IMG/VR virus record: IMGVR_UViG_3300035659_003156
Span: 1 to 29,394 of that record
DNA length: 29,394 bases
Strand: one strand, 5' to 3'
Source of the DNA: a virus
The position numbers were made by a program, and so were the translations under genes. The notes beneath the pieces were generated by a model, which did no database searches, was not told the DNA's origin, and was given only the letters and a program-made list of their open reading frames with translations. Numbering within the stretch: position 1 is the stretch's first letter; every line of letters starts with the position of its first letter. Shown here piece by piece: positions 1 through 27,764 of this stretch.

Positions 1-765
1 GTGTCGGCACTTCGGGCCGGGATGGCCGAAGGGCCCCAGGCACCCCTCCTTTTCTCGGCCAGAGCGGCTGCCGGAGGCTCGCAGGCCTCGTTGTCCTGCC
101 CCGCCGGAGCGGCCGAAGGGCCCGTGGCGGACGCGGTCGCCGAGCGGCGGCTGGTGGAGCGGGTGTTCGCGCGTTGTCACGGCGTGATTGCGGAGTCCTG
201 CCGCTACTCCTCGGTCCCGCCCGAATTCCTGGGTGGGCTAGTGGCCAACGAATCGGGAGGCAACCCGCAGGCGGTACGTTTCGAGCCCGCGGTTTATCGT
301 CACCTGAAGGCGGTGGCGGAAGGCAAGCGTCCGACCTATGCCGGCCTTTCGCGCCGCGACCTCGATGAGGAGGTCGCGGAAATGCTCCATCCCAAGGCGG
401 GGGCCTTCCACGCGGTTTTTCTGACCGGCTCCTTCCGGACGGCGCACGCGCGCGAGCTGGCGGCGAGCCGCGACGAAGCCCGGCGCGAGCTAGCCTCTTC
501 CTGGGGGCTCACGCAGATCATGGGCTACCACCTGGTGGGGCGCAGCGGCACGGTGCGGGACCTCGTCGAGCCGGGCTTCCACTTCCGCCTGGCGCTGGAG
601 CTGCTGGCGCAGTTCGCGGAGCGTTACCAGCTCGACCTCCGGCGCGAGTTTGAGGAGATGTTCCGCTGCTGGAACACGGGCCAGCCCTACGGGGAGACCT
701 TCGACCCCCACTATGTCGAGAAAGGGCTGCGGCGGGTGCGCATCTATCGGGGGTTGATTCACTGA
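1..765 (+). CDS. Endolysin, muramidase / lytic transglycosylase-like (5' end uncertain)
   Basis: Probable peptidoglycan-cleaving lysis enzyme. The lysozyme-like signature is visible: a Glu in the ANESGGNP segment (residue ~84, likely catalytic acid), SSWGLTQIMGYH (~166-177), which resembles the SWG-QIMG motif of phage N-acetylmuramidases, and CWNTG (~223-227), as in the YNTG motif of SLT-type enzymes. The C-terminus ends PHYVEKGLRRVRIY, again typical of this fold. The reading frame is open from the first base of the window with GTG, so the gene may start upstream. GTG at 124 is another possible start. The first ~45 residues are Ala/Gly-rich and are encoded by two copies of a GGCCGAAGGGCC-containing sequence (about 27-40 and 110-123), so they look repeat-derived rather than domain sequence. 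A holin gene follows directly, which supports a lysis role. Confidence 0.75.
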   Translation: MSALRAGMAEGPQAPLLFSARAAAGGSQASLSCPAGAAEGPVADAVAERRLVERVFARCHGVIAESCRYSSVPPEFLGGLVANESGGNPQAVRFEPAVYRHLKAVAEGKRPTYAGLSRRDLDEEVAEMLHPKAGAFHAVFLTGSFRTAHARELAASRDEARRELASSWGLTQIMGYHLVGRSGTVRDLVEPGFHFRLALELLAQFAERYQLDLRREFEEMFRCWNTGQPYGETFDPHYVEKGLRRVRIYRGLIH

Positions 766-809
766 AGGACTGATTCATTGAAGCATTGATTCATTGAGTC
801 ATTGAAGGG
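755..809 (+). repeat. Octamer word array (TGATTCAT type), single arm
   Basis: Seven consecutive 8-nt units, each starting TGA, with variants TGATTCAC, TGAAGGAC, TGATTCAT, TGAAGCAT, TGATTCAT, TGAGTCAT, TGAAGGG. The first unit overlaps the endolysin stop region and the array fills the gap to the holin gene. No reverse-complement arm follows, unlike most of the other word repeats in this window. Confidence 0.8.
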
Positions 810-833
810 CTGGCATTACGTGAAGGCAAAGCG

Positions 834-1058: not shown

Positions 1059-2008
1059 AGAAACCGAAACTGGAAATTGGAAACTGGAAACTAGTGCGCT
1101 GGGCGACGGCCCTTGGCACGCGAATTTCCAGTTTCGAATTTCGATTTTCCGATCTCGTGGCTCGTCTTCTCTGGCGCCTGGTGCTAGGCGCGGGCTGTCT
1201 GTTGTTTCTCGCCGTCTGGCTGCACGAGCACGACGCGCGCCTGCGCCGCGATGTGGAGCTTCAGCAACTGAAGCAGCAGACCTCGGCCCAAGTGGCCGAC
1301 CTGCGCGCGCGGGCCGAGGCCGCGCTACGCGAAGCCAACCAGAAAAACGCCCGCGTGATTGCGGACCTCGAAGCCCGTCGCCGCCAACTGGCGCGCGAGG
1401 GCGAAGCGCTCCGCCAGCGGCTGCTCCTCCTCCACGACGAAGAGAGCCAGCGGGTCAGCGACGTGGCGACGCTTCCCGCCTCCGAGCTGGCAGAGCGCTT
1501 GAAGTCTCGGGTTCCGGGATTCGAAGGACAGGTGTTAGGTGTCAGGGGTCAGGTGTCAGGGCAGAAACTTCCCAATGACCAAACGCGAAGCCCAGGCGAG
1601 AAGAGCGAAACCCCTGACACCTCACACCTGGCACCTGACACCTTGCAGTCCCCCAACCCCCAGTCCCCAGCCCCCAGCCCCGAGTTTGTCCTGACCGAGC
1701 AAGGGGCGCGCCGCATCGCGACGGCCTTTGTAGAACTCGATTCCTGCCGCGAGCAATCGGCGCTGAAAGACCAGGGGCTCGAGAACTGTCAGGAGCAGGC
1801 GGCGGTGAGCCAAGCGGCGGTAGGCGAGATGCACAAATCGCTCAACGACCTCAATCAAGCCATCCGCTGGAAGGATGAAATCCTGACCCGGGCCGAGGCT
1901 CAGCATCGCGCGGAGCTGAAGGCGGCGCGCGGCTCGCGGTGGGGCCGGTTCGTGCGCGCCGTCGAGTACGTAGCGCTCGGCGTGGCGATGGGAGTGGTGG
2001 CGCGGTGA
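1055..2008 (+). CDS. Spanin-like coiled-coil membrane protein (Rz-like, uncertain)
   Basis: 317 residues from the ATG that overlaps the holin stop. Residues ~36-56 form a transmembrane helix (VARLLWRLVLGAGCLLFLAVWL), followed by a long Glu/Arg/Gln-rich coiled coil (~60-150), a Pro-rich linker, a second helical region (~210-295) and a final hydrophobic stretch near the C-terminus. Membrane anchor plus periplasmic coiled coil next to holin and endolysin suggests an i-spanin or lysis accessory role, but it is longer than Rz of lambda (about 150 residues). Two word-repeat elements lie in frame: one encodes residues ~5-32 before the membrane helix, the other encodes the Pro-rich linker at ~160-209. 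Without them the protein would have a more usual size. No o-spanin (Rz1) frame was recognised. Confidence 0.55.
   Translation: MKKPKLEIGNWKLVRWATALGTRISSFEFRFSDLVARLLWRLVLGAGCLLFLAVWLHEHDARLRRDVELQQLKQQTSAQVADLRARAEAALREANQKNARVIADLEARRRQLAREGEALRQRLLLLHDEESQRVSDVATLPASELAERLKSRVPGFEGQVLGVRGQVSGQKLPNDQTRSPGEKSETPDTSHLAPDTLQSPNPQSPAPSPEFVLTEQGARRIATAFVELDSCREQSALKDQGLENCQEQAAVSQAAVGEMHKSLNDLNQAIRWKDEILTRAEAQHRAELKAARGSRWGRFVRAVEYVALGVAMGVVAR
1067..1150 (+). repeat. Word-repeat palindrome, AAACTGG / CCAGTTT family, in coding sequence
   Basis: The left arm (1067-1091) is AAACTGG, AAATTGG, AAACTGG, AAAC with a 7-nt period. The right arm (1122-1150) is built of GAATTTC, CAGTTTC, GAATTTC, GATTTTC. 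The arms are degenerate reverse complements with a 30-nt spacer. The element is read in frame at the N-terminus of the spanin-like gene. Confidence 0.85.
1531..1681 (+). repeat. Word-repeat palindrome, GGTGTCA / TGACACC family, plus CCCCAGC array, in coding sequence
   Basis: The left arm at 1531-1561 (GGTGTTA, GGTGTCA, GGGGTCA, GGTGTCA) and right arm at 1611-1642 (TGACACC, TCACACC, TGGCACC, TGACACC) are well-matched reverse complements around a 49-nt spacer. A second, single-arm heptamer array follows at 1650-1681 (CCCCAAC, CCCCAGT, CCCCAGC, CCCCAGC). All of it is translated in frame and gives a Ser/Pro/Thr-rich linker. Confidence 0.85.
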
Positions 2009-2012
2009 AAGA

Positions 2013-2142
2013 ATTGTCGATTGACGATTGCCGATTGTCGATTGAGGAACACTCATGACTGAAGCACGAAAGGGCGAAGCCGAATTCGCGAGTCTTCAAT
2101 CTTCATCGGCAATCGGCAATCAACAATCGGCAATCAGCAATT
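2013..2142 (+). repeat. Word-repeat palindrome, CGATTGT / CAATCGG family, intergenic
   Basis: The left arm (2013-2046) repeats ATTGTCG, ATTGACG, ATTGCCG, ATTGTCG. The right arm (2104-2142) repeats CAATCGG, CAATCAA, CAATCGG, CAATCAG. It fills nearly all of the gap between the spanin-like gene and the membrane protein at 2158. The 57-nt spacer holds a short ATG frame with no recognisable product. Confidence 0.85.
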
Positions 2143-3756: not shown

Positions 3757-5784
3757 ATGGCACCATCGCCGGTGACCGCTGCCACGGACAACTGTCCCAT
3801 GTGGGCGCCACCCCTGGAGCCGGCGGTTTCTTCTTCGGAAGAAGGCAGAAAGCAGAAGGCAGAAGGCGGAAGGCAGAAGGCAGAAGGCGGAAGGCAGAAG
3901 GCAGAAAGCAGTCGGCAGGAAGGGCGGCCGAAAACCGAAAAGCGAGCTTCCAATTCCGATCTTCGATTTGACGAAGAAGGGCCGAAAACCGAAAAGCGAA
4001 AGACGAAAAGCGACAAGCGAGTTTCCAATTTCGATTTTCCAGTTTCCGATTCGGTCAATCCAAAATCCAATCCGTCAGCTGACGGACAAAATCAAAAATC
4101 ATCAGAGGGGGCGGCGGCCTGCGTTCCCGCCGGCGGGACGTCGGGGATATCGCCGCTACCGCCGGCGCTGCGACTGCTTCCTTACCAGCGGCGCTGGGTG
4201 GAGGACAACGCGCCGCTCAAGCTGGCCGTCAAGGCGCGACAGATCGGCTATTCCTTCGCCGCCACGCTCCGCGCCGTGCTGCGCTGCCTGGAACACAAGA
4301 CCACCTGGATCTTTCTCTCCAAGGGTGAACGCCAGTCGCGCCTGCTGATGGAAAAGGTGCAGGACCACATCCGCTCCTGCGGCATCGTGGCGCGCACGCA
4401 GGAATCGACGTTCTTCGAAGGCACACTCATCAAGCAGCTGGAGACGCGCTTCCCCAACGGCTCGGTCATCTACGGCCTGCCCGCCAATCCCGACACGGCG
4501 CGCGGCTATTCCGGCCACGTCACGCTCGACGAGTTTGCTTTCCACGCGGACGCCGACAAGATCTATGCCGCCCTCTACCCCACCATCACCCGCGGCTACG
4601 GACTGGAAGTCATCTCCACGCCCAACGGGACGCAGGGGAAGTTTTATGGGCTGGCGAAAGCGGCGGGACTCACTGAGCAGGGGTTAGGGATTAGGGATCG
4701 GGGGTTAGGGAAGAACGGTGCGGCTGCTAATCCCCAATCCCCAATCCCTAATCCCTGGTCGGTGCACAACTGCGACATTTACGACGCCATCCGCCAGGGG
4801 TTGAAGATTGACCTCGAACTGCTGCGCAGCGGCTGCGAGGATGAGTCGGCCTGGCAACAGGAGTTTTGCTGCCAGTTCGTTTCCACGGCCGAGAACTTCT
4901 TCCCACCGGAACTTCTGGCCGCCAGCCTCAGCGCCGAGGCCAGTACCGACACCCCCCTCCCTCTGCTGGTCCGCGAAAGCGGAGCGCCATTTCGAGCGGC
5001 GTCCTCGGCGCCTGGCGCCTCTTCGGGACTGGGCACTGGAGACTGGGGACTGGGGACCGGCCCTAGCCCCCAGCCCCCAGCACCTAGCACCCAGTTTTTC
5101 CTGGGCCTCGACATCGGGCGGCACCACGACCGGACAGTGTTCTGGCTGGATGAAGTCCAGCCGGCGAAACTGGAAAATCGAAACTGGAAAATCGCTCTGC
5201 CCTCGTCGCATTTGGAGTCTCCAGTTTCCAGTCCCAGTTCGGAAATCCACAATTTCTCCGTTGCCCGCCTGGTACGAACATTCACCAACACCCCGTTTGC
5301 CGAGCAATTGAGCTTCGCGCGCGAGCTGCTTTCTCTCCTGCGGGAAGACGGCCGGCCGCTGGTCCGCCGCGCGGCGATCGACGCGACGGGCATGGGCGCG
5401 CCCCTGGCCGAAGCGCTCGCGCGCGAGTTTGGTCCCCGCGTGGAGCCAGTGGTCTTTACCTCCGCCGCCAAGGAAGACCTGGCGTTTCGCACCAAGCGGC
5501 GGATGGAAGCCCGGCTGACGCTGCTGCCCGACACGCGGGAAATCCGCCGGGCCTTCAGCGCCGTCAAGAAAATTGTGACGCCCAGCGGCAACCTGCGCTT
5601 TGACGCCGAGCGCACCGACGCCGGACACGCCGACGAGTTCTGGGCCAAGGCCTTGGCAGATCTGGCCGCTGATTCCCGTCCCGCGGCGAGCCACGAGGAA
5701 GCGTTCCTCGTCGATGGCGCGCCGCTGGTGAGCCCGACAGCGTTTGCGGAAGTCGACAGCGGATTCTCGATTTTGGAGTTTTGA
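3757..5784 (+). CDS. terL: Terminase large subunit, Mu gp28-like (ATPase + nuclease)
   Basis: DNA-packaging motor and headful nuclease. From the ATG at 3757 it is 675 residues; ATG 3799 is equally possible, and the frame is open back to 3610. The ATPase domain has LLPYQRRWVEDN (~142-153), a Walker-A-like region AVKARQIGYSFA (~156-167) and Walker B VTLDEFAFHAD (DE at ~258-259). The RNase H-like nuclease domain has FLGLDIGR (Asp ~452), AAIDATGMG (Asp ~542) and HADEFWAKAL (Asp ~626), which are the expected three acidic sites. The protein carries several word-repeat inserts in frame: a long low-complexity N-terminal extension of ~140 residues, one insert after the ATPase core (~309-334), one exactly between ATPase and nuclease (~424-446), and one within the nuclease domain (~471-496). 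All motifs are intact, so it is probably functional. Confidence 0.88.
   Translation: MAPSPVTAATDNCPMWAPPLEPAVSSSEEGRKQKAEGGRQKAEGGRQKAESSRQEGRPKTEKRASNSDLRFDEEGPKTEKRKTKSDKRVSNFDFPVSDSVNPKSNPSADGQNQKSSEGAAACVPAGGTSGISPLPPALRLLPYQRRWVEDNAPLKLAVKARQIGYSFAATLRAVLRCLEHKTTWIFLSKGERQSRLLMEKVQDHIRSCGIVARTQESTFFEGTLIKQLETRFPNGSVIYGLPANPDTARGYSGHVTLDEFAFHADADKIYAALYPTITRGYGLEVISTPNGTQGKFYGLAKAAGLTEQGLGIRDRGLGKNGAAANPQSPIPNPWSVHNCDIYDAIRQGLKIDLELLRSGCEDESAWQQEFCCQFVSTAENFFPPELLAASLSAEASTDTPLPLLVRESGAPFRAASSAPGASSGLGTGDWGLGTGPSPQPPAPSTQFFLGLDIGRHHDRTVFWLDEVQPAKLENRNWKIALPSSHLESPVSSPSSEIHNFSVARLVRTFTNTPFAEQLSFARELLSLLREDGRPLVRRAAIDATGMGAPLAEALAREFGPRVEPVVFTSAAKEDLAFRTKRRMEARLTLLPDTREIRRAFSAVKKIVTPSGNLRFDAERTDAGHADEFWAKALADLAADSRPAASHEEAFLVDGAPLVSPTAFAEVDSGFSILEF
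3841..3922 (+). repeat. Tandem heptamer array GAAGGCA, 11 units, in terL N-terminus
   Basis: Eleven contiguous 7-nt units: mostly GAAGGCA, with GAAAGCA twice, GAAGGCG twice and a final GTCGGCA. It is the longest and least degenerate array in the window. It encodes a Lys/Glu/Gly/Arg-rich stretch near the terminase N-terminus. As 7 is not a multiple of 3, a change of one unit would shift the frame of any start lying upstream. Confidence 0.9.
3926..4085 (+). repeat. Two CGAAAAC / GTTTTCG-type word palindromes and a perfect 14-nt palindrome, in terL
   Basis: First element: left arm 3927-3944 (CCGAAAA units), right arm 3944-3969. Second element: left arm 3979-4019 (CGAAAAC, CGAAAAG, CGAAAGA and similar), right arm 4020-4053 (GTTTCCAATTTCGATTTTCC and following). 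At 4072-4085 lies the perfect palindrome CCGTCAGCTGACGG, nearly identical to the one inside the element at 7652. Everything is translated in frame. Confidence 0.75.
4680..4758 (+). repeat. Word-repeat palindrome, GGGATTA / TAATCCC family, in terL
   Basis: The left arm (4680-4710) is GGGGTTA, GGGATTA, GGGATCG, GGGGTTA. The right arm (4728-4758) is TAATCCC, CAATCCC, CAATCCC, TAATCCC. The spacer is only 17 nt, so a strong hairpin is expected in RNA. It is read in frame and adds about 26 residues after the ATPase core. Confidence 0.9.
5025..5094 (+). repeat. Word-repeat palindrome, GGGACTG / CAGCCCC family, in terL
   Basis: The left arm (5025-5058) is GGGACTG, GGCACTG, GAGACTG, GGGACTG. The right arm (5063-5094) is TAGCCCC, CAGCCCC, CAGCACC, TAGCACC. 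The spacer is about 4 nt. It lies exactly at the linker between the ATPase and nuclease domains of the terminase. Confidence 0.9.
5167..5242 (+). repeat. Word-repeat palindrome, AAACTGG / CCAGTTT family, in terL
   Basis: The left arm (5167-5193) contains AAACTGG and AAAATCG words. The right arm (5214-5242) contains CCAGTTT and CCAGTCC words. It is translated in frame between the first and second acidic motifs of the nuclease domain. Confidence 0.8.
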
Positions 5785-5830: not shown

Positions 5831-5922
5831 GGTTGTCAGTTGTTCTTCATTCGTTACCGGATGGCGTCTCGGAACCGGTCTTCCCCGGGACCACGGACAA
5901 CTGACCACTGACAACGGACAAC
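5831..5922 (+). repeat. Word-repeat palindrome, GTTGTCA / TGACAAC family, intergenic
   Basis: The left part (5831-5854) is a poorly preserved GGTTGTCAGTTGTTC. The right arm (5894-5922) is GGACAAC, TGACCAC, TGACAAC, GGACAAC. It fills the gap between terminase and portal and ends four bases before the portal ATG, so the ribosome binding region of the portal gene is repeat sequence. Confidence 0.75.
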
Positions 5923-5926
5923 GCTT

Positions 5927-7291: not shown

Positions 7292-8620
7292 ATGCTCGCG
7301 TCGATCTCAGATTTCAAAGCGCAGATCCCAAATGTTCGCCCCAGCCCCCGGCCCCCAGCACTCAGTACGTCACCGCCGCCTCGCTTCGTGATGACGCTGA
7401 ATGCCGAGGGCGTGAGCGACGCCCTGATCCGCGTGCCGTTGGCGGTCACCGGCAAGTGGGTGCGCGGCAAAACCCTCTTCGCCATCACCCGTCAGGACCT
7501 CGAAGACATCGTGCGAAATTTCCGCGAGCGACAGAACGGCGAGATCAACGTCGATTACGACCACGCCAGCGAAATGCCGGAGGTCGCCGCGGGCGGGCCC
7601 GTGCCGTCGGCGGGGCGCATCATGAGACTGGATCGGCCCGAGCCGCTGAACGGAAGTAGGAAGTTGGAAGTAGGAAATATCCGTCAGCCGACGGACAACT
7701 CCCTACTTCCTACTTCCGGCTCCCGCCTTATTCTCTACGGCTGGTACGAGCCGACCGAGCGCGCCCGCGAGCTTCTGCAAAGCCGCGAGTACCGCTACAT
7801 CTCGCCCGCCATCGACTGGACGGCGCAGAACAAACTCACCGGCAAACCACAAGGCACGACGCTCACTTCCGTGGCGCTGACCAACCGGCCGTTTCTGGAG
7901 GAATTGCCGCAGGTCCACTTGTCCGACCCGGCGTTCCAGCCGGCAGACGAAGGCGAAACTCGAAATGCGAAAACCGAACATCGCCCCGCCGCTCGCAACT
8001 CCGCAGTTTCGAGTTTCCAGTTTCCAGTTTCCAACTCAGGAGGTTCTATGAAGCAGGTCAACCTTTCCGTCGTCGAGGGACAAATCCGTCTCGGGCACGA
8101 CGATTTCAAGGACGAGTATTACCTGGAACCTGAAGACGCGAAACGGTGCCTACACGAACTGGGCATGATGTCGGAAGTGACGCCCGCGAGCGCAACGCTC
8201 GGGGAGTCCTCGGCCGCCGTCACCCTGGTGCAGGCCGGCAGCCTGCTGTCGGAAGCCGAGGCGCGCGGCAAGTCGGTTCCCGCCCTCGAGGTCTTCCGCG
8301 CCCAGGTGGAACACGAGCTGGAGCAAGCGCTGCAGGCCGGCAAGATCCTGCCGCGCCAGCGCGACGACTGGCGAAAGATCGCGCTCGCCGACTTCCCCGC
8401 CTTCCGCAAGATCCTGGGCGGGCAGAAGCCGCTGGTGCCCGTGCGCCCCGTCGGGTTCACCGGCGCCGGTCCCGGCGACGTCCAGGCCCAGGTGAAAGTT
8501 CTGGCCGAACAGCGCATGCGCGAACAGCACATCAGCTTCGGGCAGGCGTTGAGCGACATCGGCCGCGAACAGCCCGACTTGGTCCAGCAGTACCGCCGGG
8601 CGGTGAGCGGCAACGACTAA
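7292..8620 (+). CDS. Prohead maturation protease, Mu I-like, fused in frame with scaffold
   Basis: 442 residues from an ATG with a clear GTAGGAGG ribosome binding site. Residues ~35-210 are the protease: IRVPLAVTGKWVRGKTLFAI, then NVDYDHAS with the probable catalytic His ~91, and GTTLTSVALTNRPF with the probable catalytic Ser ~193, both in the positions expected for the Mu I protein family. The protease cleaves the scaffold during capsid maturation. From ~253 the sequence is the scaffold, which also has its own start at 8048. Two word repeats are in frame: one at ~121-142 inside the protease between His and Ser, one at ~221-247 forming the linker to the scaffold. A single-arm CAGCCCC-type array encodes the Pro-rich residues ~14-26. 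Confidence 0.82.
   Translation: MLASISDFKAQIPNVRPSPRPPALSTSPPPRFVMTLNAEGVSDALIRVPLAVTGKWVRGKTLFAITRQDLEDIVRNFRERQNGEINVDYDHASEMPEVAAGGPVPSAGRIMRLDRPEPLNGSRKLEVGNIRQPTDNSLLPTSGSRLILYGWYEPTERARELLQSREYRYISPAIDWTAQNKLTGKPQGTTLTSVALTNRPFLEELPQVHLSDPAFQPADEGETRNAKTEHRPAARNSAVSSFQFPVSNSGGSMKQVNLSVVEGQIRLGHDDFKDEYYLEPEDAKRCLHELGMMSEVTPASATLGESSAAVTLVQAGSLLSEAEARGKSVPALEVFRAQVEHELEQALQAGKILPRQRDDWRKIALADFPAFRKILGGQKPLVPVRPVGFTGAGPGDVQAQVKVLAEQRMREQHISFGQALSDIGREQPDLVQQYRRAVSGND
7652..7718 (+). repeat. Word-repeat palindrome, GGAAGTA / TACTTCC family, in protease gene
   Basis: The left arm (7652-7679) is GGAAGTA, GGAAGTT, GGAAGTA, GGAAATA. The right arm (7702-7718) is TACTTCC, TACTTCC. The spacer contains CCGTCAGCCGACGG (7681-7694), one base different from the palindrome at 4072. 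It is translated in frame between the His and Ser sites of the protease. Confidence 0.88.
7953..8033 (+). repeat. Word-repeat palindrome, CGAAACT / CAGTTTC family, protease-scaffold linker
   Basis: The left arm (7953-7979) is CGAAACT, CGAAATG, CGAAAAC, CGAAC. The right arm (8000-8033) repeats CAGTTTC, GAGTTTC, CAGTTTC, CAGTTTC. It is translated in frame and lies directly in front of the internal Shine-Dalgarno of the scaffold start, so a hairpin here could influence that start. Confidence 0.88.
8038..8043 (+). promoter_or_regulatory. Internal ribosome binding site for nested scaffold
   Basis: A full AGGAGG at 8038-8043 precedes ATG 8048 with a 4-nt spacer, inside the protease reading frame. 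It decides the nested start. Confidence 0.8.
8048..8620 (+). CDS. Nested capsid scaffold protein (Mu Z-like), in frame within protease gene
   Basis: 190 residues, same frame and stop as the protease gene, starting at ATG 8048 after a perfect AGGAGG. The sequence is helical and charged, rich in Gln, Glu and Ala (EVFRAQVEHELEQALQAGKIL, QAQVKVLAEQRMREQHISFGQALSDIGRE), as expected for a scaffold core that fills the prohead and is later degraded. In Mu the scaffold gene Z is likewise an in-frame 3' part of the protease gene I, and lambda C/Nu3 is the same principle. The C-terminal ~40 residues probably bind the capsid protein. The nested start is strongly supported by the sequence; the exact role is inferred from the family. 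Confidence 0.75.
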   Translation: MKQVNLSVVEGQIRLGHDDFKDEYYLEPEDAKRCLHELGMMSEVTPASATLGESSAAVTLVQAGSLLSEAEARGKSVPALEVFRAQVEHELEQALQAGKILPRQRDDWRKIALADFPAFRKILGGQKPLVPVRPVGFTGAGPGDVQAQVKVLAEQRMREQHISFGQALSDIGREQPDLVQQYRRAVSGND

Positions 8621-8624
8621 GCAT

Positions 8625-8700
8625 AGGGACTAGGGATTGGGGATTAGGGGTTAGCGGAGGCTCTTCCCTAATCCCTAACCCCTGACCCCTAACCCCTATC
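8625..8700 (+). repeat. Word-repeat palindrome, GGGATTA / TAACCCC family, intergenic
   Basis: The left arm (8625-8654) is GGGACTA, GGGATTG, GGGATTA, GGGGTTA. The right arm (8665-8700) is TAATCCC, TAACCCC, TGACCCC, TAACCCC, TATC. The spacer is 10 nt. It fills the gap between scaffold and decoration genes and stops just before the GGAGG of the latter. Confidence 0.9.
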
Positions 8701-8714: not shown

Positions 8715-9125
8715 ATGGCAGGAGCAACCTACGTTCTGGATAAGACCTACAAGGTGACCGAGGCCGCCGGCATCACGAAGTGGCGCGCCGTCGTCCCCGG
8801 CACCAACGACGGCGAGTGCAAGTTGCCCACCGCCGCCAATCAATTCTCACTCGGCATCACCCAGGAAGCCCAGGCGAAACAGAATCAAAACGTGGCGGCG
8901 CGCAAGTACGGCATCTCACGCGCCTACGCTTCGGGCGCCATCACCAAGGGCGACTACGTGGAAGTCGGCGCTGCGGACGGGTCGCTGCGCAAGGCCGACC
9001 TCTCGACCGTGCCGGGCGCGGCCACCCTGCACCACGTGCTGGGCATCGCCGAGACTTCCGCCGCCAACGGCGAGATCTTTTTCGTGTTCCTCTCGCCCAA
9101 CCCGGTGGTGATGCCGGTGAGCTAA
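8715..9125 (+). CDS. Capsid decoration protein, DUF2190-like (probable)
   Basis: 136 residues with a good GGAGG site. The pattern is typical of small capsid-stabilising proteins: an N-terminal beta region, QFSLGITQEAQAKQNQNVAARKYGISRAYASGAITKGDYVEVGAADGSLRKADL, then a hydrophobic C-terminal strand FFVFLSPNPVV. The central 'starting value, then GDYVEV' region recalls the DUF2190 family found between scaffold and major capsid genes in many Mu-like and lambda-like phages. It would bind the outside of the expanded capsid. The long repeat-filled gap after it separates it from the capsid gene, so the two may be expressed at different levels from one transcript. Confidence 0.6.
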   Translation: MAGATYVLDKTYKVTEAAGITKWRAVVPGTNDGECKLPTAANQFSLGITQEAQAKQNQNVAARKYGISRAYASGAITKGDYVEVGAADGSLRKADLSTVPGAATLHHVLGIAETSAANGEIFFVFLSPNPVVMPVS

Positions 9126-9215
9126 TCGAGCCATCGGGCCATCGAGCCATTGAGTCATTGCTGGGATGCCTGGCGACGATTCGATGATCCGATGGACCGA
9201 TGACTCAATTCCTTC
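9126..9215 (+). repeat. Octamer word-repeat palindrome, GAGCCATC / GATGGCTC family
   Basis: It has an 8-nt period in both arms, unlike the 7-nt majority. The left arm directly follows the decoration gene stop, and the right arm ends at about 9211. The family recurs at 10366 and 23626. Confidence 0.85.
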
Positions 9216-10365: not shown

Positions 10366-10436
10366 GAATCGGGTCATCGGTTGATCGGGTCATCGGGCGA
10401 TCGTTCAGATCACCCGATGGCTCGATGGCCCGATCG
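10366..10436 (+). repeat. Octamer word-repeat palindrome, TCATCGGG / GATGGCTC family, intergenic
   Basis: The left arm (10366-10403) is GAATCGGG, TCATCGGT, TGATCGGG, TCATCGGG. The right arm (10409-10436) is GATCACCC, GATGGCTC, GATGGCCC, GATCGG. The spacer is about 5 nt. It occupies the whole gap between capsid and connector genes except the ribosome binding site. Confidence 0.9.
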
Positions 10437-10945: not shown

Positions 10946-11068
10946 GTTGAATTGTGAATGCTGAATCCTGAATTTAGGGGCCGTTGCTCGGGGCTCCGTA
11001 CTCATCGCACCATGGACGAGTTGCGCTTTTCGATTTTCGCTTTTCGCCTTTCGGTTTTCGAGTTTCGA
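10946..11068 (+). repeat. Two unpaired word arrays (GTGAATG-type and GATTTTC-type)
   Basis: The first array at 10946-10976 has units GTTGAAT, TGTGAAT, GCTGAAT, CCTGAAT. The second at 11024-11068 has units GCTTTTC, GATTTTC, GCTTTTC, GCCTTTC, GGTTTTC, GAGTTTC. They belong to different word families and neither has its complementary arm, which suggests two partially deleted elements or two half elements. The second ends two bases before ATG 11071. Confidence 0.8.
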
Positions 11069-12163: not shown

Positions 12164-15100
12164 AAGAAGGAGTCAGAAGTCAGAAGTCAGGAGTCAGAAT
12201 GCCGCGGAAGTGGACAGTGAACAGTGGACAGTGGATAGCAAAGCGGCTGCTGCAAGCCGGCCTTCTGCTGTTCACTGTTCACTGTGCACTATCCACTGCT
12301 CTGAGCGCTACGCAGGTGACGGCCACTTACGACCTGGGCGCGAATCCCCGCGTGATGGCGACGGTGAACGGCACGCCGCAATACGGCCTGGTGTTCGCGC
12401 AGCGGAACAAGCGGGTCACTTATGGTGACGTCGAATACGGGCCGAGTGTGGTAAAGGGTTACCTCAACGCGAGCGGCCAACTGAATGACGGCGCGAGCCA
12501 CCTCTGGCTCGACTTGATTCCGAACCTCGGCGCTACGCCCGGCGACAGCTACTACGTGGTGACGTTCAACATCCAGGGCCGTGTCCACGCGGAGATCTGG
12601 GTGGTGCCCGACGTGGCCACCGTCGCCGCCGAGGTCTGCCGCCAGGCCCAGCCGCCTTCCTCCACCGCTCCGGCACTTTTCTATCAGTTCCTCCAGCAAG
12701 ATGGCGACGACCTCCCCCAGCGTCAAAAGCTGAACCTTACTGGGTCGGGCGTCTCCTGCGTGGACAACGCCGGCCAGTTGCGCACTGACTGCACGGTCAC
12801 GGGCGGCGGGGGAGGCTCGGCGCCGAAGGCCTCCGCCACTGTTTCAGGTACCGTGAAAACCGACGCGACCGAGAGCGACCCAGTCGTGTATCTCAAGTCC
12901 AGCGCGGATTCCCTGCTCGCCGTCAAGGCGCCACTCACGCATAGCCACGCGGAATCGGAGGTCACGAACCTAGTCGCCGACCTCGCCGGCAAAGTGCCGA
13001 CGACGAGGGCCATCAATACGACCTCACCCCTGAGCGGCGGGGGCGCGCTTTCTGCCGACCTGACCCTCTCCCTGCCCGCGGCCACCGGCTCGCAAAATGG
13101 TTATCTCACCTCGGCTAACTGGACGACTTTCAATAACAAAGAGAATGCCCTGACGTTCAACTCACCGCTCTCGCGCTCGGTGAACGCCATCTCCTGCCCG
13201 ACGTGTGAGATCACTGGGAACAAGAACGCTGCGTCGGGCTATGCGGGACTGACGAGCGGGACCAAACTGAACGCGTCGCAGGGCCAGGAGGTTTGGTCCT
13301 CCGCAGATTTGACAGATTTCGCCGCCAAGAGCGGGACGGGAACCACCATCATGGGGGCCACGTTCACCTCGCTGGCGACGAACGACATCCCGAAGTGGAA
13401 CGGGACCAACTGGGTGAACTCCACGAGCGCCGCGAAGGCCGACGCACTCACCAATGACCCCACCGATTGTTCTGCTAATCAGTATGCCACCGCGATTGCG
13501 GCGAATGGCAACCTGACGTGCTCGCAGCCTGCTACCTCGAACCTGAGTGACGGGTCGAACGTCGTCAAGAACAACCAAGCCAACACCTATTCGGGCGGCG
13601 GGTTGCAAGACCTCTCGGCGAACAAGCTCGCGCTGCCCGCCGCAACCAGCCTGCCGGGGACCTGCACGGCGAACAAAGAGATCTACGTGGACACCGACGC
13701 CACGCCCGCCGGCCAACAGGTCTATCTGTGCAACTCCTCGGGCAACGGCTGGAACCTGATTGGCGATGGTGGTGGCGGCGGTGGAGGAACGACCATCACG
13801 GTCAACGGGGCAAGCGTCAACTCGACAGCAGATCTGGACGACTCGACGCCCGCGGCCCCGGCGAACGGCGTGAACGTCAAGTGGCAGAAGGACGCCTCGA
13901 GCCCGACGAACATCTCGGCCTACTGGCTGAGCACCGCCGTGGGCACGACGACCTTCGGCAGTGGTTCGTCGTTCACCTGGTCGTTCAACGACGACGACGC
14001 GTCGAACTCGACCATCCAGTTCGACGCCGGAGGCATCAACATCACGCCCGCCACCGGCATGGTTTATGTGGCTTCGCCGCTCCAGGCCGAGTACGGGGAC
14101 ACGGCGACGGGGAACTTGCTGACCCTGTACGGCGACACCTACTCGGCGCACACCAGCGGGACAAGGACGACGGCCATCGGCGTGCGCGGCTACGCTAACC
14201 ACAACGGCGCGGGTGGGACGGTCACGAACGCGGTGGGCGTGAGCGGGCTCGTCGGTGTCGGCGCGGGCACCATTAACGCGGCGATCGCGCTCCAGGCCCA
14301 GTCGCCGACGAAGGGCGCCGGGACGATCGACAACGCGTTCGGCCTCTACGTCCAGGCGCAGACGGTGGGGACGAACAACTACGCCATTTGGACGAACGGC
14401 ACGGAGCAGTCGCGCTTCGGCGGCCTCGTCAACGCCATCGGCGGGTTCAAAGTCAACGGCGCGGCGACTAACCACGCAGTGCTGCTCGGCAACGGGACAA
14501 TTTTCCAGGCGAGCGGCGCCATCCCCGACTGCATCGACAGCGGCGGGAACCACCTCAACTACACGCAAGGCACCCAGACGTTCGCTTGCGGCACGTCCGG
14601 CGGGGGCGCCCCGGCATTCTCGGCCATCACCACGGGCACGAATACCGCGGCCACGATGACCATCGGGAACGGGGCCACGCTCAACGGCGCGGCGGGCGGG
14701 ATTGTGGACCTTACCTCACTCACCGCCGCCACTGGCTTCAAGGTCCCCGCTGCGGCAGGCGCCACGCCGAGCGCGACCGGCGTTCTGGCCTACGACTCCA
14801 CCTCGACCACCTATAAGGGATACAACGGAGCGGCGAAAAGTTTCGCCTACACCGACACGCCGGGGACCACGGGCACCGCGCCTAACTGGTCTAGCGCAGC
14901 CGTTCTCAATATCCCGATGGCCAGCACGGCCAGCGTCACGGCGGGCCTACTTTCCAAAACGGACTACGATGCGTTCACGGCGAAGCCATCCCTAGTAACA
15001 GTCGGAACGAACGGCATCGAAGCCTACAACGCGGGCGACAACACCACGGCGGCGCGCTCCGACCACACCCACCGCTCGATCCACAACCTGACGTGGTACT

Positions 15101-15471: not shown

Positions 15472-16288
15472 AAAACCAGGATTCAGGATTCAGGATTTAG
15501 GATTCAGGCCGGTCGGGATTCGCCTGCTCGTTGCGGCTTTCGTGCTAATCCCTAATCCCTGGTTCCTAACCCCTAGTTTCGGCGCGACCAAGGTGTTCTT
15601 GAAGAGCAATAACCAGACTACGTCGTCGATTAAACCACCGACGGGTCGGACGTTCTGGAATGCTAATTCAACCCAGGGCACTTCCATGAGCACTGCGGTT
15701 ACTTCCTCGATCGCAGGTCCGGTGACAGGACAATACTGGCCGATTGCGACCACTGGTTACACCGTAACTGACGGAGCTGGAAATAAGGTCGCCTGGTTCT
15801 CTCAGCCTCTTTCGAGCGGTGTTACCATCTCCGGCACGATCACGCCGAACATCTGGGGACTGGAGTCGAACGGCAACTGCAACTGCGGGCTGCGCTACGA
15901 GGCGCTGCGCTGGTCGGTGGCTGTGGGCGGGATCGTTTCCTCGCTCGGCATCTCGACGGACGACGGCGTGACCGAATGGGGAACCTCGGCGGCGGTGCGA
16001 ACCGCACCGACGCTGACCCCGACCTCCACGAGCTTCGTGGTGGGCGACCGGATCGTTGTGGTTCTCTACAGCGATGACGCGAACGGATACACGGAGGGCA
16101 GCGGTAGAACTTTCACTATCGACGTTGCTGGCGCGACGGGCGTGGATGGGGACACATATTTGAGCTTCACGGAAACCATCAGCTTTAGCTCCGATTCGAA
16201 CAACGCGCCCGCCAGACCGGCTACTTCGTGGCTGCTACGGCCGCTGCTCTGGTGGTGGAAGCAGTATTTCGACGAGGTGTTTAGTTGA
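15455..16288 (+). CDS. Secreted beta-rich protein of the fibre cluster, unknown
   Basis: 277 residues; the ATG at 15455 overlaps the upstream gene by 17 nt and its ribosome binding site is weak. Residues ~19-43 look like a signal peptide (GIRLLVAAFVLIPNPWFLTPSFGA, likely cut before ATK), again encoded by word-repeat arms. The mature protein is a Ser/Thr/Gly-rich beta protein with CNCGLRYEALRW (~142-152) and SLGISTDDGVTEWGTSAAV, a pattern of extracellular sandwich domains. The end is unusual: ARPATSWLLRPLLWWWKQYFDEVFS is aromatic and amphipathic and could attach to a membrane or a partner. I recognise no family. With the preceding gene it forms a two-gene unit of exported fibre-like proteins. 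Confidence 0.6.
   Translation: MKRQTEKPGFRIQDLGFRPVGIRLLVAAFVLIPNPWFLTPSFGATKVFLKSNNQTTSSIKPPTGRTFWNANSTQGTSMSTAVTSSIAGPVTGQYWPIATTGYTVTDGAGNKVAWFSQPLSSGVTISGTITPNIWGLESNGNCNCGLRYEALRWSVAVGGIVSSLGISTDDGVTEWGTSAAVRTAPTLTPTSTSFVVGDRIVVVLYSDDANGYTEGSGRTFTIDVAGATGVDGDTYLSFTETISFSSDSNNAPARPATSWLLRPLLWWWKQYFDEVFS
15479..15576 (+). repeat. Word-repeat arms, GATTCAG and TAATCCC families, encoding a signal peptide
   Basis: The left arm at 15479-15508 has units GATTCAG, GATTCAG, GATTTAG, GATTCAG. The right arm at 15544-15576 has units TAATCCC, TAATCCC, TGGTTCC, TAACCCC. Complementarity is imperfect because the two words differ. Together they encode much of the first 40 residues. Confidence 0.85.
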
Positions 16289-18860: not shown

Positions 18861-18865
18861 AAAAA

Positions 18866-18955
18866 GGAGTCAGGAGTCAGAAGCCAGGAGTCAGAATGCA
18901 TGACCTTCGGCCAGACCGCCTCTTTCCTTCTGAATTCTGTCTTCTGGCTTCTTCC
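18866..18955 (+). repeat. Word-repeat palindrome, GAGTCAG / TTCTGGC family, intergenic
   Basis: The left arm (18866-18896) is GAGTCAG, GAGTCAG, AAGCCAG, GAGTCAG. The right arm (18926-18955) is TTCTGAA, TTCTGTC, TTCTGGC, TTCTTCC. The GGAG used by the next gene (18959-18962) lies immediately behind the right arm. Confidence 0.88.
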
Positions 18956-18966
18956 TTCGGAGCACT

Positions 18967-19561: not shown

Positions 19562-19649
19562 TCGATTGAAGATTGTCGATTGACGATTGGCGAACTCCTG
19601 GGGGCGCTCAACCCACGATCGGCAATCCACGATCAATAATCGACAATGG
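19562..19649 (+). repeat. Word-repeat palindrome, CGATTGA / CAATCGT family, intergenic
   Basis: The left arm (19562-19591) has words of the type CGATTGA, AGATTGT, CGATTGA, CGATTGG. The right arm (19615-19649) has CGATCGG, CAATCCA, CGATCAA, TAATCGA, CAATGG. It fills the gap before the hub gene and ends 7 nt before its ATG. Confidence 0.88.
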
Positions 19650-22600: not shown

Positions 22601-23625
22601 CAACGTCCAACGATCATCCTCGCACGCTCGTGGCGAATCCCATGGACGTAGCCCTGATCGTTTTTCAGAACGAACTCGGCCTAGGGCAGGTGCCGTCCCT
22701 TCCAGAATCTTCCTGGAAGCTCTACGATCCTGCGCAGTGGGATCCGGCGAACACCACGAACCCCACCTTGATCCAGCCCAATCCTGCGCTCGACGTGGAG
22801 CAGTTCCTTTTCTACCGGAATGGCATTTTCTCCGGCTACCTTTTCGAATTCACGTTTCCGCAGCCCATCGAGGCAAAGCAGTTCCTCGAGTTTGAACTCT
22901 TCCGCGCGCTGGGAGGGTACCTGCTGGTGCTACCGGACGGGCGGCTCTCGCCACGCTTCTTTTTGCCGCCTTACAGCCTGGCCAACGTCTTCTCGTTCAA
23001 CGAGCGTAACATCAGCGTGCTGCCCGGCGTCGAGCGCCATCCCATCATCAACCAAGTGACCTACCGGATGGATTACGACGGCAGCAAGTTCCAAACCGAC
23101 TTGCTCTTCCTCGACGCCCCTTCGCTCCAGCAATACGGACTGGCCGGGCAACACACAATTGAATCGAAGGGCCTGAAGCTGGCCCGAGGCGGGGCGTCCT
23201 TGGCCGGGCTCACAGCCACGCGCATCTTTCGCCGTTACGGCGGCATGGACCCCGTAGGGGGAGCGCCTAATGGCGGCGCGGTCACCCTGGCCGTGACCAG
23301 CCACTTCATGACCCTGACCGTCGAGGTGGGAGACTACGTCTTTCTCTCGCACCCGCTGCTGCCGAATTTCGCGACCGGCCGGCGGGGCGTCGCGAACCGG
23401 ATCTGCGAGGTGATCGAGAAGCAGCCAGACTATGCGGAAGGCACCATGACCTATCGTCTCCTCGACGTCGGCTGGGTCGTCTGCAAGAGACTGCCGCGTA
23501 TCGCGCCGGTCGGCACGCCCGCGTGGCCGAGCGCCACGTCGGCCCAGCGCGACCGCTATATGTTCGCCTGTGCCGATGCCACAAAGCAGTACAGCGACGG
23601 CACGGCGGGAAAAACGATCTTTTGA
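19657..23625 (+). CDS. Tail hub protein with inserted (alpha/alpha) glycosidase-like domain
   Basis: 1322 residues. The C-terminal half (~845-1322) is a baseplate hub of the DUF2163/gpL-like kind: VPQGVQQSIQQLEGQGSIGALELEAIDGSGF, GRKATLKVGYPGMSSADF, and VTLAVTSHFMTLTVEVGDYVFLSHP. The central part (~517-840) is helical and has the marks of an (alpha/alpha)6 toroid enzyme of carbohydrate-active type: QAYIRNGAVAWVCYAYAIYLERTGDFARA and STEHNIDCYFAFDKAARV (~606-623). A further toroid-like segment RCWIYGAALAIITF lies at ~305-318. Between these (~345-515) is a beta-sandwich (LEDAEDGSTARWTLESG onward) like a carbohydrate-binding module. The protein would attach the tail to the cell and could degrade a surface polysaccharide. 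The enzyme reaction cannot be named from the sequence. Confidence 0.72.
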   Translation: MAEVKDYYPGDLASALDSTLAWLLSRLNANVSPFAGNAVATPTDPAFVEGAMNTTEGTYSVLAQEKCPNIVLDPTAGVELDAQAGPDGFPINYCATPLLSGNLLVNVLPLSAATAVSGRAFNLLAPASEYRVDVYARTDAFYYKGSSAIADDSTWRVSCTGAGTAIAFLMPAASPQPAPGSWTSDVVGWVAHSNLGVGNRLRDYFVRVFSKTDIEYLKEDNIPIIVQDPTHARFGSSRVLGSGTPTAHVIYNDPVLGEVDLYSTLQNLAVYSDLPRSIEVPPGDPDFASPGSLVGSNLAYIQNRCWIYGAALAIITFSVTGLWEAARRIVTRLNALREDPGYLPSLILEDAEDGSTARWTLESGAGSAANLFDSSEPPSGSNVISLTATSAPTTWSYAGAGLPDTADSVVHFRYKAGVDHKFLLGVTSLTGQVTSIEFVSSGTAGYNPVSKAITAVLGLAVDTWRTLSQNLNALIEQYVPGETISSINSFRVSLESAGNLTLDNLSLGAPQPEGSLSFSYDVYNGQVDQAYIRNGAVAWVCYAYAIYLERTGDFARAALGLESMLNYLFSQQCTTEDTRHNLIMVGWGRYQNPGYQYVPGQLTSVSTEHNIDCYFAFDKAARVLPTAAQNLLDRGLITPVQYTSLKSTATTAGTKAGEIRSALLNQLWIPASGGAKGHFAQGASSSGADTSLALDAAGSWAAMFCHEAGEDARAVECLEFIYETFFLTDRQILKSSDPDSFNQAYEQLTAFDGFQPYADSTGGYSDSPASVWMEGTWGALAAYLRLSDNASLQAYFAANYAGGLDAFLARLIESMKIVATTTGHQGLLSFSLAARGLPWEFSVRMTIGSTAWFWLTATRNDVLFTNTSPPLLGRPYLKVPQGVQQSIQQLEGQGSIGALELEAIDGSGFMTALVSAGKLEGRKATLKVGYPGMSSADFVTLATQEIESIATLPDLTGYVLECRDLKRSAKTKIFTRADDGSATSNDHPRTLVANPMDVALIVFQNELGLGQVPSLPESSWKLYDPAQWDPANTTNPTLIQPNPALDVEQFLFYRNGIFSGYLFEFTFPQPIEAKQFLEFELFRALGGYLLVLPDGRLSPRFFLPPYSLANVFSFNERNISVLPGVERHPIINQVTYRMDYDGSKFQTDLLFLDAPSLQQYGLAGQHTIESKGLKLARGGASLAGLTATRIFRRYGGMDPVGGAPNGGAVTLAVTSHFMTLTVEVGDYVFLSHPLLPNFATGRRGVANRICEVIEKQPDYAEGTMTYRLLDVGWVVCKRLPRIAPVGTPAWPSATSAQRDRYMFACADATKQYSDGTAGKTIF

Positions 23626-23720
23626 TCTACCCATCGGCTCATTGACCCGTCGGTCCCACGAGTTGATGGGTAGATGGCTCGATGCACCGATGGTCCAATG
23701 ATTCGATGGCTCGATGAGGC
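23626..23720 (+). repeat. Octamer word-repeat palindrome, GATGGCTC family, intergenic
   Basis: Left words: GATCTACC, CATCGGCT, CATTGACC, CGTCGGTC. Right words: TTGATGGG, TAGATGGC, TCGATGCA, CCGATGGT, CCAATGAT, TCGATGGC, TCGATGAG. It has an 8-nt period throughout. The unit TCGATGAGGC provides the GAGG at 23716-23719 that is the only ribosome binding candidate for the next gene. Confidence 0.85.
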
Positions 23721-24287: not shown

Positions 24288-24291
24288 TGAC

Positions 24292-24954: not shown

Positions 24955-27764
24955 GAAAAGCAGGAGTCAGAAGTCAGAATTCAGAAGTCAGAGAAAGCCT
25001 CGTGGCTCTGCTCGTCGCTTGTCACTTGTCACTCGTCACTGCTTTCTGCCAGCAGCCGCAGACCTCGACAGCGCCGGTTTTCGCTGCCAACGCGAAGTAC
25101 GTGCAGGGTGTCGGTCCCGGGTACTGGCCGACGGCGGGCGCGGGCCTGACGTTGAACCTTGCGGCCGGCGCGGCCTTCTGCAACACCTCGCCGGTGGACT
25201 ACACCAGCGGGACGTTGGCGATGGCCGCGAGCCAGACTAATTATGTCTATCTCGACCCCGCGGCGAGCTGCGCGCCGGCGTCGAACACCACAGGGTTCTC
25301 GATTGGCCAGATTCCAATCGCCAAGGTTGTGACGGACGCTTCGGCCATCTCCAGCATCACCGACCTGCGCATCTGGTTCGTGCCGCTTCCCTGCACTATG
25401 AACTCCGCCGGAGCGGTTACCTGCGCGGCGCTCGGCACGGACCAGAACCTCACGCTCACGCCCAGCGGTACCGGCTTTACGCAGATCGGCGACAAGCTCC
25501 TCACGCCTAATCACGGCATCTACGACTGGGGGGTGGAGGATCTGGATCTCACCACTAACTATGACCCGGCTGCAGACCTGCTGCGCGACCCCAGCAAGAG
25601 TACCTGGGATGTGTGTATCTCTTGCGGCGGCGACGAGGTCTCGCTCTGGCGCGGCGCCCCGACCAGCGGGAGTCCGACTGTGACCAAGAAGTGGAGTGTG
25701 GGTTTTGCCGGCGACATGCGTGTGGAGAACGACATCTTCACTCCACGCCTGAACAACCTCCGCTTCGCCGACCAGTTCCCGGGAGCGGACGCCTGCGCCA
25801 AAATCAACAACGCCGCCAAGGACCTGTTCGTGCAGGGCGGCGTGGTGGACGCCCGGAATTTCTTCGGGCCGCAGACCTGCGCCACGGATCCCTTTGCCGA
25901 CGTGACCGCCCCCAGCGGAGTCTTGCTGCTCGGCGAAGCCACCTTCAACGTGTCGGCCACCTGGAATATCCCCGCGAATTGGACCGTGCGCGGCATCTAC
26001 GGCGGACGCAAGATGTCGGCGCCCACGAATGATTTCGACAACGGCACGGTGCTCAAGTGGACGGGCGCGGCGAACGGCATCGTGGTGAAGATTTTCAACG
26101 TCCACCACGTCATCTTTCAGGACTTCACCATCAATGGGAACGCGACGAACGGCGTCACCGGAATCCTGCTTAACAGTGACGGCATCGTCCCCACGCACAA
26201 CGTCGCTCTCGAGAACTTCAACATCTACCAATGCGCCGTCGGCATTCAATGGGGAATCGATACTCCTCCCTACAGTGCTTCCTTCCAGGTCAGCGATATC
26301 CACATGCGGAACTTCCATATTGCCTCGAACGTGCAAAACGGGCCCTCCACCGGCATTTCCACGATCAGCCGCGCTAGCAATGTTGTGACGGTCGTGCTGG
26401 CGGCGAATGCTATCCTCTCCGTCGGCGATACCGTGACCATTGCCGGCGTCACCGACCCGTCCTTCAACGGCACGTTCGTCATAACCTCCGTCTCCGCCAG
26501 CAACGGAACGACATACACCTACGACCAGTCCGGCTCGAATGCCAGCAGCACGGGTGGAACCTGCACGCGCAAGTTCTCCGAGGGCATCATTATTTCGAGC
26601 GGCGGCGCAGCCACCGACAGCGTGGTGGAAGGCGGAGCCATCCAGGTGGTGAACATCGGCGTGGACGTGCGCATCGTGGGCTACGTCACCTTCAAGCGTC
26701 TCGCCTGTGGATCGCTGGCGGGAACGACACCGGCCTGCTTCCGCGTCGTCACCGCCAACCACCTCATCATCGAGGAGTGCGAGAGCGAGTCCGGTGCGAC
26801 AGGGGTGGACTTCGTGAGGGCGCCCGCCAGCATTTGGAGTTCGCTGAATGGTGTGCTCAGTCTGCTCTATAACGTCATAAACGAGCCGGTCAATATCACT
26901 CAGGGCACCACGGTGGTCAGCATCGGCAACAAGGGCCCGGCCACCGCCACGCTCAACAACGCGATTTCCACCCTCATTAGCATTGGCGACCGCGTGAATC
27001 CGGACGTGGGCTGGAGCCTGACGGCAGGCAGGCTGCATTCCCTCGCCGGCGCAGGCCTGACCCTGGATAGGACCGCAAGCTTGGCCTGGGCCGACGCCAG
27101 CGGCAGCAAGGACACGTTGCTGCAACGGGAAGCAGCGAACGTCCTGGCGCTGCGGAACGGAACGAACGCGCAGACGTTCAATACTTACAACACCTACACC
27201 AACGGCTCCAACTACGAGCGCGGCTTTGTCTCCTGGGGCAGCAATAAGCTCTCGCTGGGAACCGAAGCCGCAGGCTCCGGGACGGTGCGCGGGCTGGACC
27301 TGATAGGCAGCGGCATCACTTTCTACCCGCTGGGCAATCACAGCAACTCCCCCTGGGCCATGACCTCCGCGGGGAACTTCCGGGCCCAGACGGATAACAC
27401 CTACGACATCGGCGCGGTGGGCGCCAACCGCCCCAGGAGCGTTTACGCAGCAAGCCGCGTGGTCAGCGGCCTGAATGTGGTGACCTTCTCCGCCACGCCC
27501 ACCTTCGACGCGAGCCTCGGCAACACGCAAAAGATTACGCTCACCGACAACGTCACCAGTTCCGCCCTCTCGAACGCGGCGACGGGACAGACGCTCACCT
27601 TCGTCGTCTGCCAGGATTCTACCGGCGGCCGCACCTTTGTTTGGCCCTCAACTGTCCTGGGCGGTGTGACCATCGGCTCCACCGCCTCGAAATGCAGCGC
27701 GGAGGACTTCATTTTCGACGGGACGAACGCTTATGCGGTCAGCCCCGGCGCGACAAACATGTAA
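24948..27764 (+). CDS. Tailspike with right-handed beta-helix; signal-like N-terminus
   Basis: 938 residues from ATG 24948, overlapping the upstream gene by 7 nt. Residues ~16-35 (ESLVALLVACHLSLVTAFC) form a hydrophobic stretch after a basic n-region, so a Sec signal or a lipoprotein signal (LVAC is close to a lipobox) is possible. Residues ~42-150 are a beta module. From ~274 a pectate-lyase-type beta-helix is recognisable: FADQFPGADACAKINNAA, WNIPANWTVRGIYGG, HHVIFQDFTINGNATNGVTGILL, NFNIYQCAVGIQWG. Such spikes bind and often cut capsular or other polysaccharides. The C-terminal part has NTYDIGAVGANRPRSVYAAS (~817-836), typical of fibre knob regions. The last phage gene; the prophage end follows. 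Confidence 0.75.
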   Translation: MVRKAGVRSQNSEVRESLVALLVACHLSLVTAFCQQPQTSTAPVFAANAKYVQGVGPGYWPTAGAGLTLNLAAGAAFCNTSPVDYTSGTLAMAASQTNYVYLDPAASCAPASNTTGFSIGQIPIAKVVTDASAISSITDLRIWFVPLPCTMNSAGAVTCAALGTDQNLTLTPSGTGFTQIGDKLLTPNHGIYDWGVEDLDLTTNYDPAADLLRDPSKSTWDVCISCGGDEVSLWRGAPTSGSPTVTKKWSVGFAGDMRVENDIFTPRLNNLRFADQFPGADACAKINNAAKDLFVQGGVVDARNFFGPQTCATDPFADVTAPSGVLLLGEATFNVSATWNIPANWTVRGIYGGRKMSAPTNDFDNGTVLKWTGAANGIVVKIFNVHHVIFQDFTINGNATNGVTGILLNSDGIVPTHNVALENFNIYQCAVGIQWGIDTPPYSASFQVSDIHMRNFHIASNVQNGPSTGISTISRASNVVTVVLAANAILSVGDTVTIAGVTDPSFNGTFVITSVSASNGTTYTYDQSGSNASSTGGTCTRKFSEGIIISSGGAATDSVVEGGAIQVVNIGVDVRIVGYVTFKRLACGSLAGTTPACFRVVTANHLIIEECESESGATGVDFVRAPASIWSSLNGVLSLLYNVINEPVNITQGTTVVSIGNKGPATATLNNAISTLISIGDRVNPDVGWSLTAGRLHSLAGAGLTLDRTASLAWADASGSKDTLLQREAANVLALRNGTNAQTFNTYNTYTNGSNYERGFVSWGSNKLSLGTEAAGSGTVRGLDLIGSGITFYPLGNHSNSPWAMTSAGNFRAQTDNTYDIGAVGANRPRSVYAASRVVSGLNVVTFSATPTFDASLGNTQKITLTDNVTSSALSNAATGQTLTFVVCQDSTGGRTFVWPSTVLGGVTIGSTASKCSAEDFIFDGTNAYAVSPGATNM
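24962..25051 (+). repeat. Word-repeat arms, AGTCAGA and TGTCACT families, encoding a signal-like N-terminus
   Basis: The left array (24962-24993) has units of type AGTCAGA, AGTCAGA, ATTCAGA, AGTCAGA. The right array (25018-25046) has TGTCACT, TGTCACT, CGTCACT, GCTTTCT. The two words are not complementary, so no strong hairpin is expected. Together they encode most of the first 34 residues of the spike. Confidence 0.85.

Follow-up and report, generated by a model that had tools for sequence, protein, structure and literature searches.

The 29,394-nt IMG/VR virus record IMGVR_UViG_3300035659_003156, referred to here in its entirety as the window, contains siphophage-like late genes (head, connector, and tail) that are punctuated, and in many cases interrupted, by palindromes made of short repeated words. 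A typical element is an array of ∼4 units of 7 nt, sometimes 8 nt; in most cases, the reverse-complement word is repeated in a facing array within ∼100 nt, and the purine-rich or G-rich arm usually comes first. These elements are probably heptamer slippage arrays, arising at the level of DNA, with co-evolving inverted arms and a long-term residence in slots that tolerate them. Such slots would be found at gene borders (between a stop codon and a ribosome-binding site), in loops of both the large terminase and the protease, and in signal regions at N termini. We infer that the arrays lengthen and shorten by slippage of 7-nt units and that pairing of the arms into a DNA hairpin allows each to correct the other, so that their words drift together, with slippage meanwhile scrambling the order of the units.

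Arrays were detected with a lag-match period scan (≥17 of 21 lag matches) and compared with order-1 and order-4 Markov resamples. Period 7 accounted for 25 arrays of the window and period 8 for 4, where the resamples gave an expectation of 0.00 to 0.03; the same scan detected none at periods 4 to 6 or 9 to 13. The arrays consisted of degenerate 7-nt units arranged head to tail, as in the short tandemly repeated repetitive (STRR) sequences of cyanobacteria, with a median length of 4.4 units and a density of 8.5 arrays per 10 kb. A preliminary description of this DNA had reported word-repeat palindromes at ten example positions, and all ten hold arrays or arms as claimed, in agreement with Tandem Repeats Finder and an inverted-repeat search. 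Its generalization of a 7-nt word followed by an inverted arm applied to most elements, the exceptions being four elements of period 8 (775-806, 9125-9209, 10368-10434, and about 23625-23717) and four for which the arm search of the window detected a weak partner or none (1650-1681, 3840-3911, 5888-5923, and 12171-12197). As 17 of the window arrays lie inside reading frames, the elements are not purely intergenic. The elements, detected by the period scan and arm search, are as follows (ORF, open reading frame).

775..806, plus strand: octamer array of CATTGAAT type without a clear partner arm
1066..1149, plus strand: hairpin, word GAAACTG, arms 1066-1099 and 1116-1149; encodes the N terminus of the ORF from 1055
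1530..1643, plus strand: hairpin, word AGGTGTC, arms 1530-1561 and 1612-1643; in frame within ORF 1055-2008
2013..2141, plus strand: hairpin, word CGATTGN, arms 2013-2042 and 2105-2134
3840..3911, plus strand: long unpaired heptamer array AGAAGGC of ∼10 units; in frame, upstream of the terminase domain
4679..4756, plus strand: hairpin, word GGGATTA, arms 4679-4708 and 4727-4756; in-frame insert in the large terminase
5025..5095, plus strand: hairpin, word GGGACTG; in-frame insert in the large terminase
5166..5228, plus strand: third terminase insert, word GAAACTG, arms 5166-5183 and 5211-5228
7652..7717, plus strand: hairpin, word GGAAGTA; in frame in the head maturation protease, with the same slot and word in L011
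8005..8033, plus strand: heptamer array AGTTTCC; in frame in the protease, in the linker slot where most phages have CGAAAAT/CGAAACT-type words
8624..8698, plus strand: hairpin, word GGGATTA; between the protease stop codon and the scaffold ribosome-binding site
9125..9209, plus strand: octamer hairpin, word CATCGAGC; 3′ of the scaffold gene
10368..10434, plus strand: octamer hairpin 3′ of the capsid gene
11017..11068, plus strand: unpaired heptamer array TTTTCGA; between the genes at 10458 and 11071
12171..12297, plus strand: array AGTCAGA and hairpin GTGGACA (12209-12297); encodes a signal-peptide-like N terminus
15477..15578, plus strand: arrays CAGGATT and CTAATCC; encode part of the signal-peptide-like N terminus of ORF 15455
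18865..18961, plus strand: hairpin, word AGGAGTC; between the genes at 17910 and 18967
19564..19647, plus strand: hairpin, word CGATTGA; in the gap ahead of the gene near 19657
about 23625..23717, plus strand: octamer-type repeats around CGATGNNC
24961..25040, plus strand: arrays CAGAAGT and GTCACTT; encode the signal-peptide-like N terminus of ORF 24948

Relatives of the window were collected by searches with the capsid and portal proteins and formed a near group, with capsid proteins 72 to 94% identical, and a distant group (30 to 47%). The near-group phages also have these elements, with densities reaching 20 arrays per 10 kb. Two of the distant phages, L015 and L017, have them as well, while essentially no arrays were detected in distant phages L018 to L026.

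Partner arms were defined as inverted-complementary segments with a score of ≥12 at a distance of ≤130 nt, and flanks taken from other contigs served as the control. An inverted arm was present for 74% of 204 arrays in the phage set, compared to 8% in the control, while partners in direct orientation were found for 10%. In the window, the best complementary pairs have arms of 23 to 38 nt that are mostly 77 to 91% complementary and separated by 16 to 62 nt; for the 104 best hairpins of the phage set, the median arm is 29.5 nt and the median loop 19 nt. The G-rich arm is the 5′ arm in 78 of these best hairpins and the 3′ arm in 16. Reverse-complement words at a distance of 0 to 1 were found for 42 of 74 neighboring arms, compared to 3.5% of random pairs. 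In one element, L010 and L036 are set apart by a single 7-nt unit, and this difference is confined to the 3′ arm. Two candidate explanations were rejected: 5-nt palindromes in the word cores, as a driver of strand switching, were only ∼1.5 standard deviations above shuffled words, and absence of SbcD as a reason for pairing showed no pattern, since the paired genome G073 has SbcD and the paired genome G207 has no match.

The words themselves are limited in number. The phage set contains 93 consensus words out of 1,172 possible classes (102 if sampled host loci are included), of which ∼20 occur in the window. Some recur within the window, namely, AGTCAG-type words at 12171, 18866, and 24961, AAACTGG-type words at 1066, 5165, and 8005, and GGGATTA-type words at 4680 and 8625, and the phage words overlap those of acidobacterial chromosomes. 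Slots were defined as gene borders aligned by synteny across the related phages. The same borders hold elements of differing sequence in different phages, yet 21% of within-slot pairs have a word distance of 0 to 1 versus 8% of permuted pairs (P = 0.003, closest relatives removed). At the protease-scaffold slot, for example, the window element is shared with L034 and L032, while L009, L010, L011, L013, and L031 have other words. The slot 3′ of the scaffold gene is mostly octameric, with octamers also in L009, L010, L034, L036, L014, L016, and L037. Thus, the proposal that each element has a different word held in the sense of one architecture with many sequences, but a free choice of word was unsupported because the words are restricted in number, shared with hosts, and conserved by slot.

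Elements shared by the window and L034 are 0.88 identical and their flanks 0.79 to 0.80, so that the elements are about equally or slightly more conserved. Between L009 and L010, a complete element has been exchanged while the flanks are 89 to 93% identical, and in L027 the second slot ahead of the capsid gene is near-empty. REP-like (repetitive extragenic palindrome) hairpins of the types GTAGGGG...CCCTAC and TAGCGGCGG...CCGCTACA were also observed to fill heptamer-hairpin slots in L014, L016, L009, L033, and L037. A degenerate word common to the elements, R-S-R-A-N-T-S, was significant (4.36 versus ∼3.6 bits; z = 4.6 for host-only words). It was dropped as a candidate recognition motif because it largely reflects TA depletion and GA/TC enrichment. 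TTGGTCA and CAACAGT, which we take to be cyanobacterial STRR words, fit it poorly.

Relative to the element-free L039, the large terminase has in-frame inserts at three loops. For three in-gene arrays of the window, units of pure consensus would include a stop codon, and the actual arrays have none. The terminase of L016 (L016:5239-5430) has a reading frame broken at a heptamer insert, which suggests a decaying prophage or a recent insertion.

Several elements occupy gene starts. In a suitable frame, a hairpin with a purine-rich first arm and a pyrimidine-rich second arm would be translated into a charged and then a hydrophobic stretch, and elements at gene starts could therefore serve as signal peptides. 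Window ORFs 12160, 15455, and 24948 each have an N-terminal basic and then hydrophobic stretch encoded partly or largely by array arms. Homologues of the 12160 protein in L012, L013, L031, L033, L035, L036, and L037 have the same layout in different words (e.g., ATHVTATYDLGANPHVMATVNG), and in array-bearing homologues every array is N-terminal, ahead of the mature domain, with none in the body. The homologues in L016 and L014 also start with a hydrophobic stretch, but it contains no arrays. Different words for the signal-peptide-like N terminus were used in 8 of the 10 homologues. Arrays encode 6 to 12 residues of the most hydrophobic 12-residue stretch in 8 of 10 array-bearing N termini and just 2 of the 12 in window ORF 15455 and in L036. 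As read from sequence and hydropathy, it looks as if arms in several genes encode the export signal of the protein. Averaged over all frames, the hydropathy of one arm differs only modestly from that of the other (−0.77 versus −0.32), so the effect depends on frame and the claim covers these N-terminal cases rather than a general property. It is conceivable, and we put this forward tentatively, that the elements constitute a class of palindromes defined by architecture, with one word per slot and concerted drift of the arms, whose purine-first polarity makes them a ready source of signal peptides and linkers and which has supplied the signal region of one exported phage protein in different words in most relatives.

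The element class is also present in bacteria. Contigs of metagenome-assembled genomes (MAGs) that matched the phages were labeled Terriglobia or Acidobacteria, although these host-phage pairings are tentative, as short phage contigs cannot be binned with certainty. Sampled chromosomal stretches of G001 to G004 had 0.6 to 2.4 arrays per 10 kb, and those of G006 and G008 had none; the overall chromosomal range was 0 to 2.9 per 10 kb. Three test words matched 26, 33, and 41 of 199 Acidobacteriota genomes, and period 7 dominated in the scanned stretches of four heptamer-positive genomes. Pairing varies between chromosomes, from 40 of 57 arrays in G073 to 2 of 32 in G191. In G073, a control pattern (a test word written backwards, with GACTGAR units) matched 1,517 times, at AGGACTG arrays; another heptamer word is massively expanded in this genome.

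Four points weigh against slippage and co-evolution of arms as a full account. Replacement by recombination would look similar to concerted drift between some phages. The phages are about tenfold denser in arrays than the sampled host DNA, which is beyond what slippage alone explains, and slippage alone leaves the purine-first polarity unexplained. Finally, at the border 3′ of the capsid gene, all 17 phages have a significant inverted repeat, drawn from several unrelated families (heptamer, octamer, GTAGGGG...CCCTAC-type, and others), which hints at a function beyond tolerance.

That border also speaks for a role in RNA, which along with mobility is a minority reading. The hairpins might be interchangeable RNA punctuation between late genes, processing, stabilizing, or attenuating transcripts, with the shape kept and the sequence free. 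Such a role is consistent with the location of elements between stop codon and ribosome-binding site and with an inverted repeat at the protease-scaffold slot in 12 of 15 phages. At other borders, however, hairpins are frequently missing (down to 3 of 9 and 1 of 9), and many elements lie within reading frames. Moreover, a selected RNA hairpin should show more G.U than A.C mismatches in its stems, but the ratio was 132:139 overall and 75:75 for intergenic elements. As there was no G.U excess, RNA pairing is not what is conserved, and a general RNA function is unlikely. The post-capsid border alone leaves room for selection on hairpin shape, and so for the recognition of shape suggested in the preliminary description, without backing from the G.U test.

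A candidate RNA structure of another kind lies ahead of the capsid gene. This conserved leader (window 9214-9295 and about 9370-9427) has a mean column identity of 79% over 10 phages and folds as a multistem structure in which both partners have changed at 6 pairs; variable elements lie between its CTCCGCG and CGCGGAG arms. It had no Rfam match and is possibly a new phage RNA motif. The only Rfam match in the window lies outside the elements:

2553-2598, minus strand: Acido-Lenti-1 RNA (RF01687), 43.4 bits; antisense within the ORF called 2158-2649

The end of the window carries a CorA transporter gene and a weak PilZ match, both host-like in appearance.

Movement of the elements by a hairpin-recognizing host enzyme, such as a Y1 transposase (HUH/RAYT-like, of the type associated with REP sequences), would account for whole-element exchange within a slot, for the near-empty site in L027, and for the broken terminase frame in L016. 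Y1_Tnp was detected in 37 of 43 heptamer-rich Acidobacteriota genomes and 88 of 156 others (odds ratio, 4.8; P = 0.0003; not corrected for phylogeny). However, the control transposase family PF01609 was likewise associated with heptamer richness (odds ratio, 2.6; P = 0.009; also uncorrected), and 6 heptamer-positive genomes had no Y1 match. Neither a target-site duplication nor a foot sequence came to light at the element edges, for which no systematic motif scan was made, and words stay put in their slots. Small mobile elements are thus a rather improbable explanation.

The preliminary description had suggested template switching as the generating process. If fold-back synthesis had copied an array into its own inverted arm, with later decay, both arms would have a common word, as they do, and some chromosomal elements of G073 have near-perfect arms. 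The order of the units is not mirrored, however: in-register arm identity was 0.848 compared to 0.847 after permutation of unit order, and 1 of 41 pairs had a P value of <0.05, in a test with limited power where units are few. Since the common word is not accompanied by a common order of unit variants, neither arm is a recent fold-back copy of the other, and such copying is not visible in the present elements. Arm copying followed by slippage that scrambled unit order may still be how the arms originated; fold-back synthesis as the explanation of the elements as they stand is improbable indeed. Chance periodicity or an assembly artifact, for which nothing was found in favor, has a negligible probability, as Markov resamples lack such arrays and the class occurs in many independent IMG/VR contigs, viral records, and MAGs.

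The elements resemble several known systems in part. The palindromic elements of Rickettsia are inserted in frame in protein genes, as are the terminase inserts and N termini described here, but they are longer families with a common sequence rather than heptamer arrays. REP/RAYT and miniature inverted-repeat transposable element (MITE)-type palindromes are likewise imperfect intergenic hairpins, but their shared stem sequence is not found in heptamer elements, which differ between slots, and target duplication was not seen at the latter. The nearest parallel had been thought to be the cyanobacterial heptanucleotide repeats, with three words in Calothrix and GGGGA(C/T)T in Nostoc (cited in PMC4692102). 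This was a fair comparison, both being degenerate 7-nt tandem arrays with several words. However, few paired repeats are reported in Nostoc (PMC4692102), unlike the phage arrays, and one or few words per genome is the STRR pattern, as opposed to the ∼20 of the window. The GGGAATC arrays of Xanthomonas are closer: they consist of degenerate 7-nt units, mostly ∼4, are mainly intergenic, and include 70 and 75 cases of facing arrays with the potential to form stem-loops (PMC4692102). Convergent pairs of same-word arrays in close proximity are thus common to both systems. The Xanthomonas arrays differ in having one described word, whereas the phage group has 93 that are slot specific, located in the late region, and used in frame and in signal regions. 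By inspection of words, their G-tract/G-quadruplex trait is not general in the phage elements, being present in GGGATTA and GGGACTG but not in CGATTGN, GAATTCT, or GTGGACA. TAACTGA repeats of Beggiatoaceae and others occur in sets of 2 to 6 copies, mostly intergenic just before start codons and in some cases encoded at protein ends, but have a single favored word, rare near-variants, and essentially no inverted pairing (PMC4679880). In the literature searched, which did not extend to subscription papers, no acidobacterial or phage cases, multiword paired arrays, or arm-encoded signal regions were described.

Taken together, these elements extend a known class of bacterial heptamer repeats, itself poorly explained, with a dense variant that is new in part. 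Heptamers are overrepresented in many bacterial genomes, and one idea for the preference for seven is that slippage is set by the polymerase footprint (cited in PMC4692102). This phage group is suited to a study of the birth, turnover, and pairing of such arrays, as it is dense in elements, has many words and aligned slots, and includes relatives that differ in word or are free of elements. Furthermore, hairpin arms that encode signal-peptide-like N termini would provide a concrete path from a noncoding repeat to a protein targeting sequence.

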